Assembly (NCBI RefSeq): GCF_030549525.1
Contig: NZ_CP130831.1
Span: 1,451,501 to 1,515,500 of the forward strand
Direction of reading: 5' to 3'
Length of the DNA: 64,000 nucleotides
From: Stenotrophomonas sp. 704A1
Lineage (GTDB): Bacteria > Pseudomonadota > Gammaproteobacteria > Xanthomonadales > Xanthomonadaceae
Below, one piece after another: positions 17,901 to 36,719 of this stretch (the first letter of the stretch is position 1; every line of letters begins with the position of its first letter). The notes under the pieces were generated by a model that made no database searches, had not been told where the DNA came from, and saw only the letters and a program-made list of their open reading frames with translations. The position numbers and the translations under genes were made by a program.

Positions 17901-18266
17901 ATGAGCACCACTGTCTACGGTTTGAAGAACTGCGATACCTGCAAGAAGGCGACCAAGTGGCTGGACCGCTTCGGCGTGCCCTACACCTTCGTCGACTACC
18001 GCGACAACAAACCCACTCCGGAAACCCTGCTGGAATGGGCCGCGCAGCTGGGCGGCCTGGGCGCGATGGTCAACAGGTCGTCCACCACCTGGCGGCAGCT
18101 GCCCGACAACCGCAAGGCCGCCGATTCCGAGGCCGAATGGAAGCTGCTGCTGCGCGAGTACCCGCAGCTGATCAAGCGCCCGCTGGTGGTCACCGCCGAC
18201 GGCACGGTCAGCCAGGGCTTCAGTGACAACGGCTTCAAGGCCCGCTTCGGCGTGGGCGACGCATGA
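17901..18266 (+). CDS. yffB: ArsC/Spx-family reductase-like protein
   Basis: About 121 residues of thioredoxin fold with the N-terminal [11 protein letters not shown] site (CxxC; start [17 protein letters not shown]) and the later RPLVVTADG block. The E. coli homologue YffB also lies directly upstream of dapE; it binds glutathione and its role is unclear, so arsenate reduction should not be assumed. An ATG two codons upstream (17895) is an alternative start. Its stop overlaps the dapE start as ATGA. Confidence 0.88.
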
Positions 18267-19390
18267 GCGCGGTCCTTGACCTGGCGTGCGAGCTGATCGC
18301 GCGGCCCTCGGTGACGCCGGACGACGCCGGCTGCCAGGCGCTGCTGGCCGCGCGGCTGCAGCAGGCGGGGTTCCAGTGCGAACACCTGCGGCTGGGCCAG
18401 GTCGACAATCTGTGGGCCACCCATGGCAGCGGTGCGCCGGTGCTGGTCCTGCTTGGCCATACCGATGTCGTGCCGCCGGGCCCGCGCGAGGCCTGGCAGA
18501 GCGATCCGTTTGACGCGCAGGTCCGCGATGGCGTGCTGTATGGCCGCGGCAGCGCCGACATGAAGGGCAGCGTGGCCGCATTCGTGATCGCAGCCGAGCA
18601 GTTCGTGGCTGCACATCCGCACCATGCCGGTACGCTGGCGGTGCTGCTGACCAGCGATGAAGAGGGCGATGCCATCGATGGCGTGCGCCACGTGGCGCGG
18701 CTGTTCGCCGAGCGCGGCCAGCGCATCGACTGGTGCATCACCGGCGAGCCGTCGTCGACCGCGACGCTGGGTGACCTGCTGCGCGTCGGCCGTCGCGGCA
18801 GCCTCTCTGCGAAGCTGCGGGTGCAGGGTGTGCAGGGCCATGTGGCCTACCCGGACAAGGCGCGCAACCCGATCCACCAGGCGGCGCCGGCGCTGGCCGA
18901 GCTGAGCGCACGGCGCTGGGACGAGGGCTACGAGAGCTTCCCCGCGACCAGCCTGCAGATCTCCAACATCCATGCCGGCACCGGGGCCAACAACGTGATC
19001 CCCGGCGAGCTGGAGGTGGACTTCAACCTGCGCTACAACCCGCACTGGGATGCGGCGGCGCTGGAGGCGGAGATCACCGCGCTGCTCGACCGGCACGGCC
19101 TGCAGTACACGTTGAAGTGGCATCGCAGCGGCGAGCCGTTCTACACCCCGGAAGGCGTGCTGCGCGCCGCAGCACGCGCCGTGCTGGCCGAGCACGTCGG
19201 CCATGCACCGGAGGAAAGCACCGGTGGCGGTACCTCCGATGCGCGCTTCATCGCACCGCTGGGTGCCCAGTGCATCGAAGTCGGGCCGGTCAACGCCAGC
19301 ATCCACCAGGTGGACGAGAACGTGCGCGTGGATGAGCTGGAAGCACTGCCGGGGCTGTACCAGCGGCTGCTGGAACGCCTGCTGGCGTGA
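18263..19390 (+). CDS. dapE: Succinyl-diaminopimelate desuccinylase
   Basis: 375 residues; the dinuclear zinc peptidase that releases LL-diaminopimelate and succinate, three steps after DapD in the same pathway. Metal and catalytic motifs are intact: [32 protein letters not shown] (catalytic Glu), [13 protein letters not shown] and a C-terminal His in NASIHQVDE. It overlaps yffB by 4 bp. Confidence 0.97.
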
Positions 19391-19397
19391 GGCATGA

Positions 19398-19454
19398 CGC
19401 CGGGCATGGCCTGGCGTTCCCCCCGACCGGTAGCGCCGGGCCATGCCGGGCGGC
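19398..19454. repeat. SMAG (GTAG-type) palindrome pair
   Basis: A palindrome CGCCGGGCATGGCCTGGCG (19398-19416) is followed by a GTAG-headed palindrome beginning GTAGCGCCGGGCCATGCC at 19430. This is the Stenotrophomonas SMAG type of REP element. It lies just after the dapE stop and before the asnB leader promoter. Confidence 0.8.
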
Positions 19455-19473
19455 ACGGCACCTGTGGTTGCCA

Positions 19474-19511
19474 ACGCAACTGTTGCGTGGCACCGGAAAC
19501 CGCGTTACGGT
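19474..19511 (+). promoter_or_regulatory. Candidate asnB leader promoter with palindromic operator
   Basis: TTGCGT (19483-19488), 17-bp spacer, TACGGT (19506-19511), then 7 bp to the leader-peptide ATG. A perfect inverted repeat ACGCAAC-T-GTTGCGT (19474-19488) overlaps the -35 and would suit a dimeric regulator. The regulator is unknown. Confidence 0.5.
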
Positions 19512-19518
19512 CGGTGCC

Positions 19519-19620
19519 ATGTCGATCCGCCTGGCCACCGCCGTCAACACGTCCAACCGCAATAATCTGCGTGCGAATAATCGTGCGCGGCCGATGCGGG
19601 ACTGCGCCCTGGGTAGATAG
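19519..19620 (+). CDS. Asparagine-rich leader peptide of asnB
   Basis: 33 codons, MSIRLATAV followed by NTSNRNNLRANN and a short Arg-rich end. Six of twelve consecutive codons (10-21) are Asn, including two AAT-AAT pairs. The gene lies directly upstream of a strong terminator and of asparagine synthetase. Its distal part (19589-19600, GGCCGATGCGGG) is an exact copy of the terminator's 3' half and can pair with the 5' half at 19650-19661. This is the design of a ribosome-mediated attenuator sensing charged tRNA-Asn. No clear Shine-Dalgarno is present; a start close to the predicted +1 suggests leaderless translation. Confidence 0.75.
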   Translation: MSIRLATAVNTSNRNNLRANNRARPMRDCALGR

Positions 19621-19649
19621 ACAGCACCACACGCCCGGACACCAGAAAA

Positions 19650-19676
19650 CCCGCATCGGCCGATGCGGGTTTTTTT
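19650..19676 (+). terminator. Attenuator terminator upstream of asnB
   Basis: A perfect 20-bp palindrome CCCGCATCGGCCGATGCGGG is followed by seven T residues. It begins 29 bp after the leader-peptide stop codon and 111 bp before the asnB ATG. The 5' arm can alternatively form 12 bp with 19589-19600 in the leader peptide gene (antiterminator). Confidence 0.85.
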
Positions 19677-19760
19677 GTGCCCGGGCGCTGCCCTCCCGGG
19701 CCTGGATGGCCGGTCGAACACCTTCCCCCCGTGTAATCCCCCACTACAGGAGCGCCACCC

Positions 19761-21452
19761 ATGTGTTCGATCTTCGGAATCTTCGGCCTGCAGGCCGGCG
19801 ACGACCTTCCCTCCCTGCGCCGCCATGCGCTGGAACTGTCGCAGCGCCAGCGCCACCGCGGCCCCGACTGGAGCGGGGTATACCTGGACGAGGGCGCGCT
19901 GCTGGTGCACGAGCGGCTGGCGATCGTCGACCCGGCCGGCGGCTCGCAGCCGTTGCTGTCCGAGGACGGCGGGCTGGCGCTGGCGGTCAACGGCGAGATC
20001 TACAACCACCAGCAGCTCAAGGCCGGCCTCGGCCAGGCCTACGCGTTCCAGACCGGCTCGGACTGCGAAGTGATCAACGCGTTGTACCGCCAGGGCGGTG
20101 CGCCCGCGCAGTGGCTGGAACAGCTCAACGGCATCTTCGCCTTCGCGCTGTGGGACCGTGACGCCGGCCGCGTGCTGGTGGCGCGCGATCCGATCGGGGT
20201 GGTGCCGCTGTACTGGGGCCACGATGCGCAGGGGCGCCTGCGGGTTGCGTCGGAAATGAAGGCGCTGGTCGATTCGTGCGCCGACGTCGCCCAGTTCCCG
20301 CCGGGCCACTACTACGACAGCGCCACCGGCGAACTGGTGCGCTACTACCGGCAACCCTGGCGCGACTACGCCGATGTGCAGGGCCGCCAGGCCGATCTGG
20401 CCGAACTGCGGCAGGCCTTCGAACAGGCGGTCGAGCGCCAGCTGATGAGCGATGTGCCGTATGGCGTGCTGCTGTCCGGCGGCCTCGATTCGTCGCTGGT
20501 GGCCGCGGTGGCTGCCCGTTACGCACGCCGTCGCATCGAGGACGGTGGCCAGAGCGAAGCCTGGTGGCCGCGCCTGCACTCGTTCGCGATCGGTCTGAAG
20601 GGGTCGCCGGACCTGGCCGCCGCTGCGGTCGCCGCCGAAGCGCTGGGCACCGTCCACCACGGCTTCGAATACACCTTCGAGGAAGGCCTGGACGTGCTGC
20701 CGGAAGTGATCCGCCACATCGAGACCTATGACGTCACCACCATCCGCGCATCCACGCCGATGTTCCTGCTGGCGCGGCGGATCAAGGCAATGGGGGTGAA
20801 GATGGTGCTGTCCGGCGAGGGCAGCGACGAGATCTTCGGCGGCTACCTGTACTTCCACAAGGCCCCGGATGCGCGCGAATTCCACCAGGAACTGGTGCGC
20901 AAGCTCGATGCGCTGCACAACTATGACTGCCTGCGCGCCAACAAGTCGATGATGGCCTGGGGCGTGGAGCCCCGTGTGCCGTTCCTGGATCGCGAGTTCC
21001 TGGACGTGGCGATGCGTTTCGATGCTGCCCACAAGATGGTCGGCGCCGGCTTTGGTGGCCGGCGCATCGAGAAGGCGGTGCTGCGCGAGGCCTTCGAGGG
21101 CTACCTGCCCGACAGCATCCTGTGGCGGCAGAAGGAGCAGTTCAGCGATGGCGTCGGCTATGGCTGGATCGATGGACTGAAGGCACACGCCGAAGCACAG
21201 GTGAGTGACCGCGTGCTGGCAGCGGCCGACAAGCGCTTCCCGCACAACCCGCCGCAGACCAAGGAGGCGTACTACTACCGCCACCTGTTCGAGCAGTTCT
21301 TCCCCAGCCACGCGGCGGCGGAAACCGTGCCGGGCGGCAAGTCGATCGCCTGTTCCTCGCCGGCGGCGATCGCCTGGGATGCCAGCTTCGCCGCGGCCGC
21401 CGATCCTTCCGGCCGGGCCATTGCCGGGGTGCACGAGCAGGCGCTGGCCTGA
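19761..21452 (+). CDS. asnB: Asparagine synthetase B (glutamine-hydrolysing)
   Basis: 563 residues. Residue 2 is the nucleophilic Cys of the class II glutaminase domain (MCSIFGIFG), with RGPDWSGVY and VNGEIYNHQQL following. The synthetase domain has the PP-loop LLSGGLDSSLVAA (about residues 240-252) and SGEGSDEIFGGYLYFH. It makes asparagine from aspartate, ATP and glutamine. AGGAG sits 8 bp before the ATG. Regulation by transcription attenuation is indicated by the leader region upstream. Confidence 0.97.
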   Translation: MCSIFGIFGLQAGDDLPSLRRHALELSQRQRHRGPDWSGVYLDEGALLVHERLAIVDPAGGSQPLLSEDGGLALAVNGEIYNHQQLKAGLGQAYAFQTGSDCEVINALYRQGGAPAQWLEQLNGIFAFALWDRDAGRVLVARDPIGVVPLYWGHDAQGRLRVASEMKALVDSCADVAQFPPGHYYDSATGELVRYYRQPWRDYADVQGRQADLAELRQAFEQAVERQLMSDVPYGVLLSGGLDSSLVAAVAARYARRRIEDGGQSEAWWPRLHSFAIGLKGSPDLAAAAVAAEALGTVHHGFEYTFEEGLDVLPEVIRHIETYDVTTIRASTPMFLLARRIKAMGVKMVLSGEGSDEIFGGYLYFHKAPDAREFHQELVRKLDALHNYDCLRANKSMMAWGVEPRVPFLDREFLDVAMRFDAAHKMVGAGFGGRRIEKAVLREAFEGYLPDSILWRQKEQFSDGVGYGWIDGLKAHAEAQVSDRVLAAADKRFPHNPPQTKEAYYYRHLFEQFFPSHAAAETVPGGKSIACSSPAAIAWDASFAAAADPSGRAIAGVHEQALA

Positions 21453-34380: not shown

Positions 34381-34467
34381 TGGTGCCCAGGAGAGGACTC
34401 GAACCTCCACGAAGTTGCCCCCGCTAGCACCTGAAGCTAGTGCGTCTACCAATTCCGCCACCTGGGC
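34381..34467 (-). tRNA. tRNA-Leu(CAG), copy 1
   Basis: 87 nt, class II tRNA with long variable arm. Acceptor arm GCCCAGG/CCTGGGC, anticodon loop TTCAGGT in stem CTAGC/GCTAG giving anticodon CAG, T-loop TTCGAGT, encoded CCA end. Identical to the copy at 36400-36486. Confidence 0.95.
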
Positions 34468-34481
34468 GACTCAGGAGGAGA

Positions 34482-34510
34482 ATTTTGCAGCAAGGCTTTT
34501 CATGTGTCAA
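34482..34510 (-). promoter_or_regulatory. Promoter of tRNA-Leu copy 1
   Basis: Minus strand TTGACA (34510-34505), 17-bp spacer, CAAAAT (34487-34482), 14 bp before the tRNA 5' end. Confidence 0.75.
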
Positions 34511-34517
34511 CAACCTT

Positions 34518-35417
34518 TCACACTTTTTTCTGCGGCTGCACGCCCAGGTGCTGAAGCAGGCTGCGCATCGCCGGTGACAGCTGCATCCAGCTGGAAAAAC
34601 ACACGCACAGCCGGCGCTGTGCCCACGCGTCGGCCAGCGGCACCGCCACCGTATGCGTGCTGCGCCGATGCTGGCGCGCGATGGTGCGTGGCACGACGCC
34701 GACGCCGATGCCATGGCCCACCATGGTGCTCAGGCCGTCGAAGGTTTTCATGCGGATGCGGACGTCCAGCCGGCGGCCGGCCTCGTCGGCGCGCTCGTGC
34801 ACATAGGTCTGCAGCGCATTGCCGTCGGCCAGTGCGACGAAGGCTTCGCCCAGCACCTCGACGAACGCGAGCGAACGCCGTGCGGCCAGGCGATGGCCAG
34901 CAGGCAGCAGCATCACCAATGGATCTTCGGCCACTACATGCCGCTGCAGGCCTTCGGCCGGCACCGCATCGCTGATGATGCCGGCTTCGGCCTGGCCTGC
35001 GCCGAGGGCGCGCACGATATCGTCACTGGTGCGCTCATGCAGTTCCACATGCAGGCGTGGGCGCAGTGCCAGCCAGGGCGCAAGCCGGGCCGGCAGGTAG
35101 TTGGTGAGTGCGGCCGTGTTGGCATACAGGTGCAGGGTGCCGCGCGCGCCCTGGGCGAAGGCTTCCAGCTCGCCGCGCAGCTGCGCCTGCTGCTGCAGGA
35201 TCAGCCGCGCATGGTGGGCGAGGGCCGCGCCGGCTTCGGTCAGGCTGACCCCGCGCGGGTGCCGGTTCAACAATGCGCTGCCGGCGTCGGCTTCGATCGC
35301 GCGCAGCCGTTCACTGGCCGAACCCAGGGCCAGGTTCGCCCGCGCGGCACCGGCGGTGATGCTGCCTGCTTCGGCGACCGCCAGGAACAGGCGCAGATCG
35401 GCGATGTCCATCCGCAT
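34518..35417 (-). CDS. LysR-family transcriptional regulator
   Basis: 299 residues with the N-terminal helix-turn-helix typical of the family (DLRLFLAVAEAGSITAGAAR; ALGSASERLRAIEADAGSAL; NRHPRGVSLTEAG) and a periplasmic-binding-like effector domain. It is divergent from the TauE/SafE-type permease gene, with 97 bp between, so it probably controls that transporter. Start at 35417 (MRMDIAD) or 35411 (MDIAD). Confidence 0.88.
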   Translation of the reverse strand: MRMDIADLRLFLAVAEAGSITAGAARANLALGSASERLRAIEADAGSALLNRHPRGVSLTEAGAALAHHARLILQQQAQLRGELEAFAQGARGTLHLYANTAALTNYLPARLAPWLALRPRLHVELHERTSDDIVRALGAGQAEAGIISDAVPAEGLQRHVVAEDPLVMLLPAGHRLAARRSLAFVEVLGEAFVALADGNALQTYVHERADEAGRRLDVRIRMKTFDGLSTMVGHGIGVGVVPRTIARQHRRSTHTVAVPLADAWAQRRLCVCFSSWMQLSPAMRSLLQHLGVQPQKKV

Positions 35418-35514
35418 GTCAGTGCTCCGCGTGGCACCCCGCCTTCGGCGGGTCCGAAGGCTCGGCCGGGAAGACCGCATTGTGCGCCGTGCGACGGCCC
35501 GATCCAATGGCGGC

Positions 35515-36261
35515 ATGAACGAGACGATGTACTTCCATGCGCTGCTGGTGGCGGTGTTCCTGCTGGCCGGAGTGGTCAAGGGCGTGACCGGCATGGGCCT
35601 GCCGACCGTGGCCATGGGCCTGCTGGGCGGGGCGCTGTCGCCGGTGGCGGCCGCCTCGATGCTGTTCATCCCCACCTTCGTGACCAATGCCTGGCAACTG
35701 CTGTGCGGGCCGTCGCTGGGACGGATCCTGCGCCGCTTGTGGCCGATGATGCTGGCGGTGGTGGTGGTGACGCTGGGCGCGGCTGCACTGCTGGTACGGG
35801 TGGACCGTGATGCCTCGCGCACGGCGCTGGGCGTCGCGCTGGTGGTCTATGCGGCGTATGCGCTGGTGGCGCCGGTGTTTCATGTGCCGGCGCGCCGCGA
35901 GCGCTGGCTGGGCCCGCTGGTCGGGGCGGTATCCGGGGTGGTCACCGGCGCCACCGGCGTGTTCGTGATGCCGGCGGTGCCGTACCTGCAGTCGCTGGGC
36001 CTGCAGCGCGACGAGCTGGTGCAGGCACTGGGCCTGGCATTCACCGTGTCGACGATCTCATTGACCGCCGGGCTGGCGTTGCAGGGGGCGTTCGGCGTAC
36101 AGCAGCTTGGCCTGAGTGCTCTGGCGGTGGTGCCAGCGCTGGCCGGCATGTGGCTGGGGCAGGTGATCCGCCAGCGCATCAGTGCCCGGGTGTTCCGCGC
36201 GTGCTTCCTCGGTTTCCTGCTGCTGCTCGGGCTGGAGCTGGCGCTGCGCCCGCTGTTCTGA
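35515..36261 (+). CDS. TauE/SafE-family membrane permease
   Basis: 248 residues with about 8 hydrophobic segments (FHALLVAVFLLAGVVKGVTG; GPLVGAVSGVVTGATGVFVM). The two GVxxGxTG-like repeats are the hallmark of the sulfite/organosulfonate exporter family. The substrate is unknown. ATG 35515 was chosen because the upstream open frame overlaps lysR on the other strand. Confidence 0.85.
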   Translation: MNETMYFHALLVAVFLLAGVVKGVTGMGLPTVAMGLLGGALSPVAAASMLFIPTFVTNAWQLLCGPSLGRILRRLWPMMLAVVVVTLGAAALLVRVDRDASRTALGVALVVYAAYALVAPVFHVPARRERWLGPLVGAVSGVVTGATGVFVMPAVPYLQSLGLQRDELVQALGLAFTVSTISLTAGLALQGAFGVQQLGLSALAVVPALAGMWLGQVIRQRISARVFRACFLGFLLLLGLELALRPLF

Positions 36262-36282
36262 TTACGTTCGCGGCCGGCTCTT

Positions 36283-36340
36283 GTAGAGTCGAGCCATGCT
36301 CTACTGCTGTGAGGATCAGTCGAGCATGGCTCGACTCTGC
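36283..36340. repeat. SMAG-type inverted pair, GTAGAGTCGAGC subtype
   Basis: GTAGAGTCGAGCCATGCT (36283) and, inverted, AGTCGAGCATGGCTCGACTC (from 36319). It lies between the convergent permease and tRNA-Leu copy 2. Confidence 0.75.
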
Positions 36341-36361
36341 AAAGGCCAAATCGCAGGCAAG

Positions 36362-36383
36362 AAAAAACCCGCTTTCGCGGGTG
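36362..36383 (-). terminator. Terminator of tRNA-Leu copy 2
   Basis: Minus strand ACCCGC-GAAA-GCGGGT followed by TTTTT, 17 bp past the tRNA 3' end. Confidence 0.85.
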
Positions 36384-36399
36384 TTTTTCTTTCTCGACA

Positions 36400-36486
36400 T
36401 GGTGCCCAGGAGAGGACTCGAACCTCCACGAAGTTGCCCCCGCTAGCACCTGAAGCTAGTGCGTCTACCAATTCCGCCACCTGGGC
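36400..36486 (-). tRNA. tRNA-Leu(CAG), copy 2
   Basis: 87 nt, identical to the copy at 34381-34467, with its own promoter and terminator. The two copies flank the LysR/TauE gene pair as a direct repeat. Confidence 0.95.
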
Positions 36487-36499
36487 GTCGAGGAGGAGA

Positions 36500-36528
36500 A
36501 TTATGCGGTGCAGTGAAGGATGTGTCAA
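36500..36528 (-). promoter_or_regulatory. Promoter of tRNA-Leu copy 2
   Basis: Minus strand TTGACA (36528-36523), 17-bp spacer, CATAAT (36505-36500), 13 bp before the tRNA. Confidence 0.8.
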
Positions 36529-36596
36529 CACCCGCGCACCACGTCGGTGACGACCCGCGCGACGACGGGCGGTGCCTGCCTGCCGCCGGCGAACAG

Positions 36597-36630
36597 GCAA
36601 AAAAAATCCCCGCCGGAGCGAGGAGTTTTT
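36597..36630 (-). terminator. Terminator of tRNA-Leu copy 3
   Basis: Minus strand CTCCTCGC-TCCG-GCGGGGA with one G-U pair, followed by eight T residues. Weaker stem than the other two. Confidence 0.65.
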
Positions 36631-36634
36631 TCGT

Positions 36635-36719
<85 letters not shown>

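Follow-up and report, generated by a model that had tools for sequence, protein, structure and literature searches.

An asparagine-codon leader and a probable transcription attenuator in front of asnB in Stenotrophomonas and its relatives

Introduction

Between dapE and the asparagine synthetase gene asnB of Stenotrophomonas sp. 704A1 lies a short reading frame rich in asparagine codons, followed by a strong terminator. Does this frame serve as a leader peptide gene through which the supply of charged tRNA-Asn sets the transcription of asnB? Leader-peptide attenuators are well known in proteobacteria for trp, his, leu, ilv, thr, and phe, and the asparagine genes of Firmicutes are known to carry T-boxes, in which uncharged tRNA is bound directly and no leader is translated. 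The locus lies in a stretch of 64,000 nucleotides (contig NZ_CP130831.1, positions 1,451,501 to 1,515,500), here called the window, whose own numbering is used throughout. A preliminary description of this DNA had read the locus as ribosome-mediated attenuation that senses asparagine, and this interpretation is supported by the conservation and the covariation reported below. We conclude that the element very probably gauges charged tRNA-Asn and sets asnB transcription by ribosome-mediated attenuation; the switching itself we infer.

Results

Layout of the locus

The gene that would be controlled, asnB (positions 19761 to 21452, plus strand), encodes a glutamine-hydrolyzing asparagine synthetase whose product matches NCBIfam model PRK09431 (asparagine synthase B) with 868.6 bits against a cutoff of 499. 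Its 5′ neighbor, dapE (18263 to 19390, plus strand), lies outside the switch. On the same strand between the two is a leader peptide gene of 33 codons (MSIRLATAVNTSNRNNLRANNRARPMRDCALGR; 19519 to 19620), which begins with an ATG at 19519, ends with the stop codon TAG at 19618 to 19620, and has a matching frame before asnB in the relatives. The six Asn codons (codons 10, 13, 15, 16, 20, and 21) form a control region at 19546 to 19581, supported by conservation and by the controls described below, with AAC at 19546 and 19555 and AAT at 19561, 19564, 19576, and 19579. Read mechanically, the leader frame reaches back to a GTG at 19387; we took ATG 19519 as the start because a conserved promoter box lies 35 to 37 nt before it. 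The earlier count of 33 codons therefore holds from ATG 19519, a start chosen by means of the promoter box, while the frame itself is longer.

An intrinsic terminator follows at 19644 to 19676 (plus strand), with arms at 19644 to 19657 and 19662 to 19675, a GGCC loop, and a tract of seven T residues at 19670 to 19676. The palindrome AAAACCCGCATC-GGCC-GATGCGGGTTTT is perfect across 28 bases; the stem has 12 perfect inner pairs, and the hairpin finder lengthens the arms to 14 bases with one G-U pair. All coordinates given in the preliminary description for a leader of 33 codons with six Asn codons, a terminator with seven T residues, and then asnB proved correct. Within the leader gene, positions 19589 to 19600 (segment 2, the 5′ strand of the predicted antiterminator) are the perfect 12-bp complement of positions 19650 to 19661 (segment 3), both on the plus strand, so that the pairing first proposed from inspection of the locus is exact. 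Segment 3 is a shared strand, which either pairs with segment 2 to form the antiterminator or joins the terminator. Across positions 19401 to 19800, GGCCGATGCGGG was found at 19589 and again at 19658 in the hairpin, and CCCGCATCGGCC was found at 19650 only.

Just 3′ of dapE, at 19398 to 19454, is a palindromic repeat with many partial copies in the window's genome; among the matches listed there were 94, nearly all of them to the repeat part. It resembles the short palindromic GTAG repeats of Stenotrophomonas (SMAG).

Loci and controls

We collected asnB upstream regions from 80 contigs and from genomes of the order. The main set consisted of the AsnB clade of the order (approximately 73% identity and above) and comprised 131 loci, the window included, or 124 once exact duplicates had been removed; it covered the Lysobacteraceae (the window's family), the Rhodanobacteraceae, and one further family. 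The two family names rest on identity across the element: L105, from a genome of the window's genus, matches L011 (a Stenotrophomonas contig) exactly, and L148 matches L071 (a Luteibacter) exactly. One locus (L044), whose contig ends 60 nt before asnB, was dropped before any counts were made. As controls we used 39 regions upstream of AsnB copies that came from outside the order or had less than 70% identity, among them three (L034, L041, and L075) that were placed there after the absence of a leader had been seen. All statistics treat the loci as independent, with kinship uncorrected.

Asparagine codons are conserved in the leader

We looked at how strongly Asn codons cluster in the frame before asnB. 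Across the 124 unique loci, the best stretch of 12 codons held 3 to 8 Asn codons (median, 6), with at least 4 in 120 loci and at least 5 in 108. The opposite strand of the same DNA never exceeded 3 Asn per 12 codons (0/124 at 5), dinucleotide shuffles (n = 3,100) reached 4 in 46 cases and 5 in 2, and the 39 control upstream regions gave 4 once (L171) and 5 never. These results indicate that the Asn-rich frame before asnB is not a product of chance. Nearly the whole set thus has a short leader in which codons for the pathway's own product cluster, at 4 or more Asn per 12 codons in 120 of 124 loci, and the retention of these codons in relatives, on which the preliminary description had made its reading depend, is borne out.

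Both codons for asparagine were used in the leaders of the relatives (420 AAC and 378 AAT; 798 in total), so it is the amino acid that selection keeps. AAT made up 378 of the 798 leader codons, whereas 39 long, high-GC3 reading frames of the window had 41 AAT among 427 Asn codons; this excess may mean that selection favors slow decoding or weakly structured RNA. The theory of codon choice in attenuators rests, in the portion of the source available to us, on competition among isoacceptor tRNAs (PMC1183508), and its application to asparagine is not obvious. Leaders ranged from 20 to 45 codons in the relatives, and beyond the Asn run the peptide varied by subtype, with ends such as RARPMRDCD, SLPRAGD, WRARA, and IDGWAGV.

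A conserved promoter box suggests a leaderless transcript

We chose the start of each leader among the in-frame ATG and GTG codons that have a TTGC/T box 26 to 42 nt upstream. Such a start existed in all 124 loci, and the box began 35 to 37 nt before it in 115 of them. When the ATG was held fixed, the box lay at 35 to 37 nt in 114 of 123 loci versus 92 of 2,460 shuffles. In the window, the predicted −35 box TTGCGT (19483 to 19488, plus strand), which corresponds to the conserved TTGC/T box of the relatives, and the predicted −10 box TACGGT (19506 to 19511, plus strand), assigned from the position of the promoter, are 17 nt apart, and TACGGT ends 7 nt before the ATG. A promoter placed in this way predicts that transcription starts at or next to ATG 19519, and the leader mRNA is apparently leaderless. 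A comparable case is the trpL of Sinorhizobium meliloti, whose attenuated RNA is reported to have the leader ATG at its 5′ end and to act in trans as well (PMC7298713).

A terminator and a predicted competing pairing recur across the clade

A terminator-like hairpin was found 3′ of the leader in 131 of 131 loci under a loose rule. This rule also fired in 336 of 620 shuffles, but none of the 620 scored as high as the real hairpin. The T tract is interrupted in some members. An intrinsic terminator thus stands between the leader and the structural gene.

Next, we looked into whether the leader could compete with this terminator. The tail of the leader, from the last Asn codon to the stop, complements the 5′ arm of the terminator, and in the window this is again segment 2, the exact 12-bp complement. 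The duplex was better than 200 shuffles of the same tail at a P value of ≤0.05 in 71 of 124 loci (median z, −2.1), so that a pairing mutually exclusive with the terminator is present, at 12 bp in the window, with 53 of 124 loci not significant when taken singly. For a fixed 9-mer pairing, the mean score was 5.84 versus 3.35 in shuffles (P ≤ 0.05 in 49 of 124 loci, missed in 75); because segment 2 was placed in the register of highest complementarity, pair counts of this kind lean toward pairing. When arms were swapped between loci, the leaders scored 5.84 with their own arm and 4.46 with the arms of others, and the own arm took a mean rank of 4.26 of 18 (9 at random).

The antiterminator arm, whose conservation had been named beforehand as a point on which the reading could fail, is kept in close relatives and covaries over the family, with exceptions among the loci. 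In L017, the loop of the terminator (GACC) and the leader strand (GGTC) have both changed, and all 12 pairs are kept. In L103 and L115, the loop has changed but the leader has not followed; the leader strand of L104 carries a mismatch, and at least seven loci (L019, L059, L060, L061, L121, L152, and L156) have a duplex z at or above 0. In many members of the Rhodanobacteraceae, the leader strand also complements bases of the terminator loop, which are unpaired in the terminator.

The sharpest evidence for the competing pairing is covariation at one position of the arm; of 66 tree rows, 61 have C there and 5, all of the Lysobacter type, have U. The facing leader base is always A opposite U (5 rows), while opposite C it is G in 56 rows, C in 5, and never A. 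Parsimony on the AsnB tree places four C/U changes at this position, a number that would drop if branchings with weak support are false. Independently, the peptide tails fix the register of segment 2 here; they read LPQA or PPQA in the U loci and LPRA in the rest of the subtype. Moreover, the terminator's own partner at this position stays G, a tolerated wobble, so that it is the antiterminator, rather than the terminator, that accounts for the change in the leader.

Geometry and folding

We then evaluated where a ribosome would stand relative to these segments. In 84 of 124 loci, the stop codon follows 6 nt after the end of the 9-mer core of segment 2, and a ribosome waiting at the stop would therefore cover segment 2; in the window, the distance from the end of segment 2 to the stop is 17 nt, and a ribosome there would hardly cover it. 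The RNA 3′ of a ribosome at the stop folded into the terminator in 123 of 124 loci, a near-trivial result, as little else is left to pair. For a ribosome stalled in the middle of the Asn run, the nascent RNA before synthesis of the 3′ arm was more stable than shuffles (median z, −2.7; below all 20 shuffles in 73 of 124 loci), and at least 8 bases of the arm and loop paired with the leader in 106 loci versus 71.9 expected. In full thermodynamic folds with the same stall, the terminator was lost in only 39 of 124 loci. Antitermination must therefore rely on segments 2 and 3 pairing first, that is, on kinetics. In the window, shifting the start of the fold by one nucleotide flips the outcome, the two states being nearly equal. 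A protector pairing between segments 1 and 2 was at control level (109 of 124 loci versus 112.4 expected), which gave no support to it as a general feature. A local hairpin with Asn20 and Asn21 in its loop is predicted in the window, where it may help.

Starting from the observed leader frame, terminator, and complementary strand, conserved and covarying as described above, we infer translation of the leader, stalling, and a transcriptional outcome, as follows. Transcription would start at or next to the leader ATG, and a ribosome would load once the 5′ end has left the RNA polymerase. When charged tRNA-Asn is ample, the ribosome would pass the Asn codons, reach the stop, and, in most relatives, cover segment 2; the terminator would then form, and transcription would end near 19676. 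When charged tRNA-Asn is short, the ribosome would stall within the Asn run and leave segment 2 free to pair with segment 3 as the latter is synthesized, so that no terminator would form and asnB would be transcribed.

Asparagine supply and distribution of the leader

Such a switch depends on how cells of this order charge tRNA-Asn. Of 61 genomes of the order, 58 had asparaginyl-tRNA synthetase (AsnRS, encoded by asnS) above the cutoff, all 8 of the window's family among them; GatB was above the cutoff in 25 of 61 and in none of those 8. In the same 61 genomes, gatB occurred without a full-length AsnB in 25, a full-length AsnB without gatB in 31, neither in full in 5 (one of these with a gatB fragment), and both in none. 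GatB is needed for the synthesis of Asn-tRNA by transamidation. As far as is known, the sampled genomes with this asnB can therefore obtain Asn-tRNA from free asparagine alone, made by AsnB or taken up, and a sole route through free asparagine is what such a switch needs. Among seven sampled genomes of the Rhodanobacteraceae, three have gatB and four have asnB.

In a tree of 80 AsnB proteins, 70 rows fell into one clade with full SH-aLRT support. These rows are 66 of the main set, the locus cut before its leader (L044), and three loci without a leader: L034 (a Holophagales metagenome-assembled genome [MAG]), L041 (Rhodococcus), and L075 (a deltaproteobacterial MAG). The asnB genes of the last three, which come from other phyla, look like transferred or misbinned genes. 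Carriage of the leader along with asnB on transfer was considered and rejected, as these three lack it.

Outside the clade, we read a further 62 asnB upstream regions of the order (L159 to L184, L215 to L235, and L237 to L251; L215 was trimmed to 325 nt) as well as two from the class (L185 and L236). They gave one possible leader, in L171, whose AsnB is 65% identical. There, approximately 30 to 150 nt before asnB, MFAIYNTINTTNNRLLRSAGSF precedes a strong terminator, and a complementary strand is present as well. The frame has 4 Asn per 12 codons, and one such count is expected by chance (shuffle rate, 48/3,100 at 4 or more); the promoter-like sequence, judged by eye, does not look leaderless. 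L171 is possibly an independent Asn leader in another family. No leader was seen before the enterobacterial and other distant asnB copies among the 80 contigs. In a class-wide sample, 4 of 143 genomes passed the AsnB cutoff, the window's own genome included, so that this sample says little about the class. As for a second Asn leader elsewhere in the genome, a pattern of two Asn pairs gave 20 matches versus 27 in a backward control (counts only), and none was indicated.

Discussion

Relation to known systems

The element shares with the Asn T-boxes of Firmicutes that the charging of tRNA-Asn would be sensed at the RNA level; it differs from them in being a translated leader with no T-box match. 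Its parts are otherwise those of the attenuators of trp, his, leu, thr, phe, and ilv: a short leader with codons for the product, an intrinsic terminator, an antiterminator strand between the control codons and the terminator, and a biosynthetic gene downstream (the trp scheme is given in the available part of PMC7298713). It differs from these attenuators in the control amino acid, which is asparagine, in the position of the antiterminator strand inside the leader gene, and in that pairing between segments 1 and 2 showed no excess over the control level. With rnTrpL, the trpL RNA of S. meliloti, it has in common an RNA that begins at the leader ATG, as reported there and as predicted here from promoter spacing, whereas the leader of S. 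meliloti has 14 residues, answers to Trp, and has a reported role in trans (available part of PMC7298713), and the leaders here have 20 to 45 codons and carry Asn. The Cys- and Leu-codon leaders of Actinobacteria were likewise predicted by genome comparison from their control codons; those leaders concern other amino acids, and the cys ones are without obvious terminators, whereas a terminator and a rival pairing are present here (available part of PMC1262725).

That an Asn-codon attenuator was not known, as the preliminary description had remarked, agrees with a search of the open literature by title and by the beginning of the abstract, which gave none. In the parts available of Naville and Gautheret 2010 (PMC2965389) and of the Actinobacteria survey (PMC1262725), and in a survey of RNAs in 26 genomes (PMC8632094), asparagine, asnB, or asn do not appear in the sense of an attenuator; in the available part of the sX13 paper (PMC3771888), asnB2 of Xanthomonas appears only as a tested gene. 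The novelty of an asparagine version is thus likely, not proven. The system belongs to a long-established kind, and its novelty lies in the control amino acid, in how deep it reaches taxonomically, and in an apparently leaderless transcript.

Alternative explanations

The alternative that survives best, which we nevertheless regard as quite improbable, is that these parts form a leader switch that responds to impaired translation of any kind, be it slow ribosomes, antibiotics that target the ribosome, or a lack of arginine, and not to asparagine alone. Any stall 5′ of segment 2 would free segment 2, and the residues of the 124 leaders are Asn to 19.7%, Ala to 18.9%, and Arg to 14.9%, both of which would suit such a switch. 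However, the Asn cluster recurs in every subtype while the peptide tails differ widely, and the controlled gene is one that makes asparagine.

Less probable still is that the short transcript or its peptide acts mainly in trans, as rnTrpL and the peptide peTrpL do in S. meliloti, with the control of asnB secondary. The predicted leaderless start resembles that of rnTrpL in the available part of its description (PMC7298713), and a terminated RNA of approximately 158 nt is predicted from the coordinates. Against a main role of this kind, the peptide is poorly kept outside the Asn run, and the covariation is internal to the switch; an added role in trans would still be compatible with asparagine-sensing attenuation.

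We give almost no credence to a metabolite-binding riboswitch or a T-box for asparagine that would operate here with no translated leader. Asn-responsive T-boxes do exist in Firmicutes, but no Rfam family reached its gathering score at this locus. At gathering scores, Rfam 15 gave only three tRNAs in the window and nothing in six loci that were searched whole, the window's own among them. The best match below threshold was Thr_leader (22.2 bits versus a cutoff of 55), which covers the terminator only. The T-box covariance model gave no match at its gathering score, nor any up to an E value of 5 in positions 19400 to 19800. A riboswitch, a T-box, and a known Rfam leader were accordingly rejected, as none matched. 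Elsewhere in the genome, Thr_leader hit six loci, all below the cutoff, and the five that were read had no Thr-rich leader; His_leader had no match in the genome.

Equally remote is a coincidence in which a dapE terminator, or a hairpin derived from a repeat, happens to lie beside an Asn-rich frame of no significance. The repeat-like palindrome with its many partial genome copies just upstream (19398 to 19454) could speak for it, but we rejected it on the conservation of the terminator in all 131 orthologous loci, the conserved promoter box between dapE and the leader, and the shuffle and strand controls.

What the attenuator would mean

If attenuation by charged tRNA-Asn is true, asparagine becomes one of the few amino acids that are sensed through a translated leader, and the switch occurs in a large group of bacteria associated with plants, soil, and the clinic. 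As free asparagine is apparently the sole route to Asn-tRNA in the window's family, the element would be a clean gauge of Asn-tRNA charging in vivo. More than 100 natural attenuators, apparently leaderless, would show how ribosome and polymerase are kept in step without a ribosome-binding site, and compensatory changes could be used to separate the antiterminator from the terminator.

A more far-reaching version, which we consider speculative and rather unlikely, is that ribosome-mediated attenuation has here gained a new specificity, for asparagine, which is fixed in at least two families and operates on a leaderless leader mRNA. Here, the ribosome would load on the bare 5′ end, neither a Shine-Dalgarno sequence nor a conserved pause hairpin would be needed to set the timing, and the terminated RNA of approximately 158 nt would double as a leaderless mRNA or as a trans-acting small RNA like rnTrpL.

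Elsewhere in the window, three tRNA-Leu(CAG) genes lie within 2.4 kb on the minus strand (34381 to 36719).
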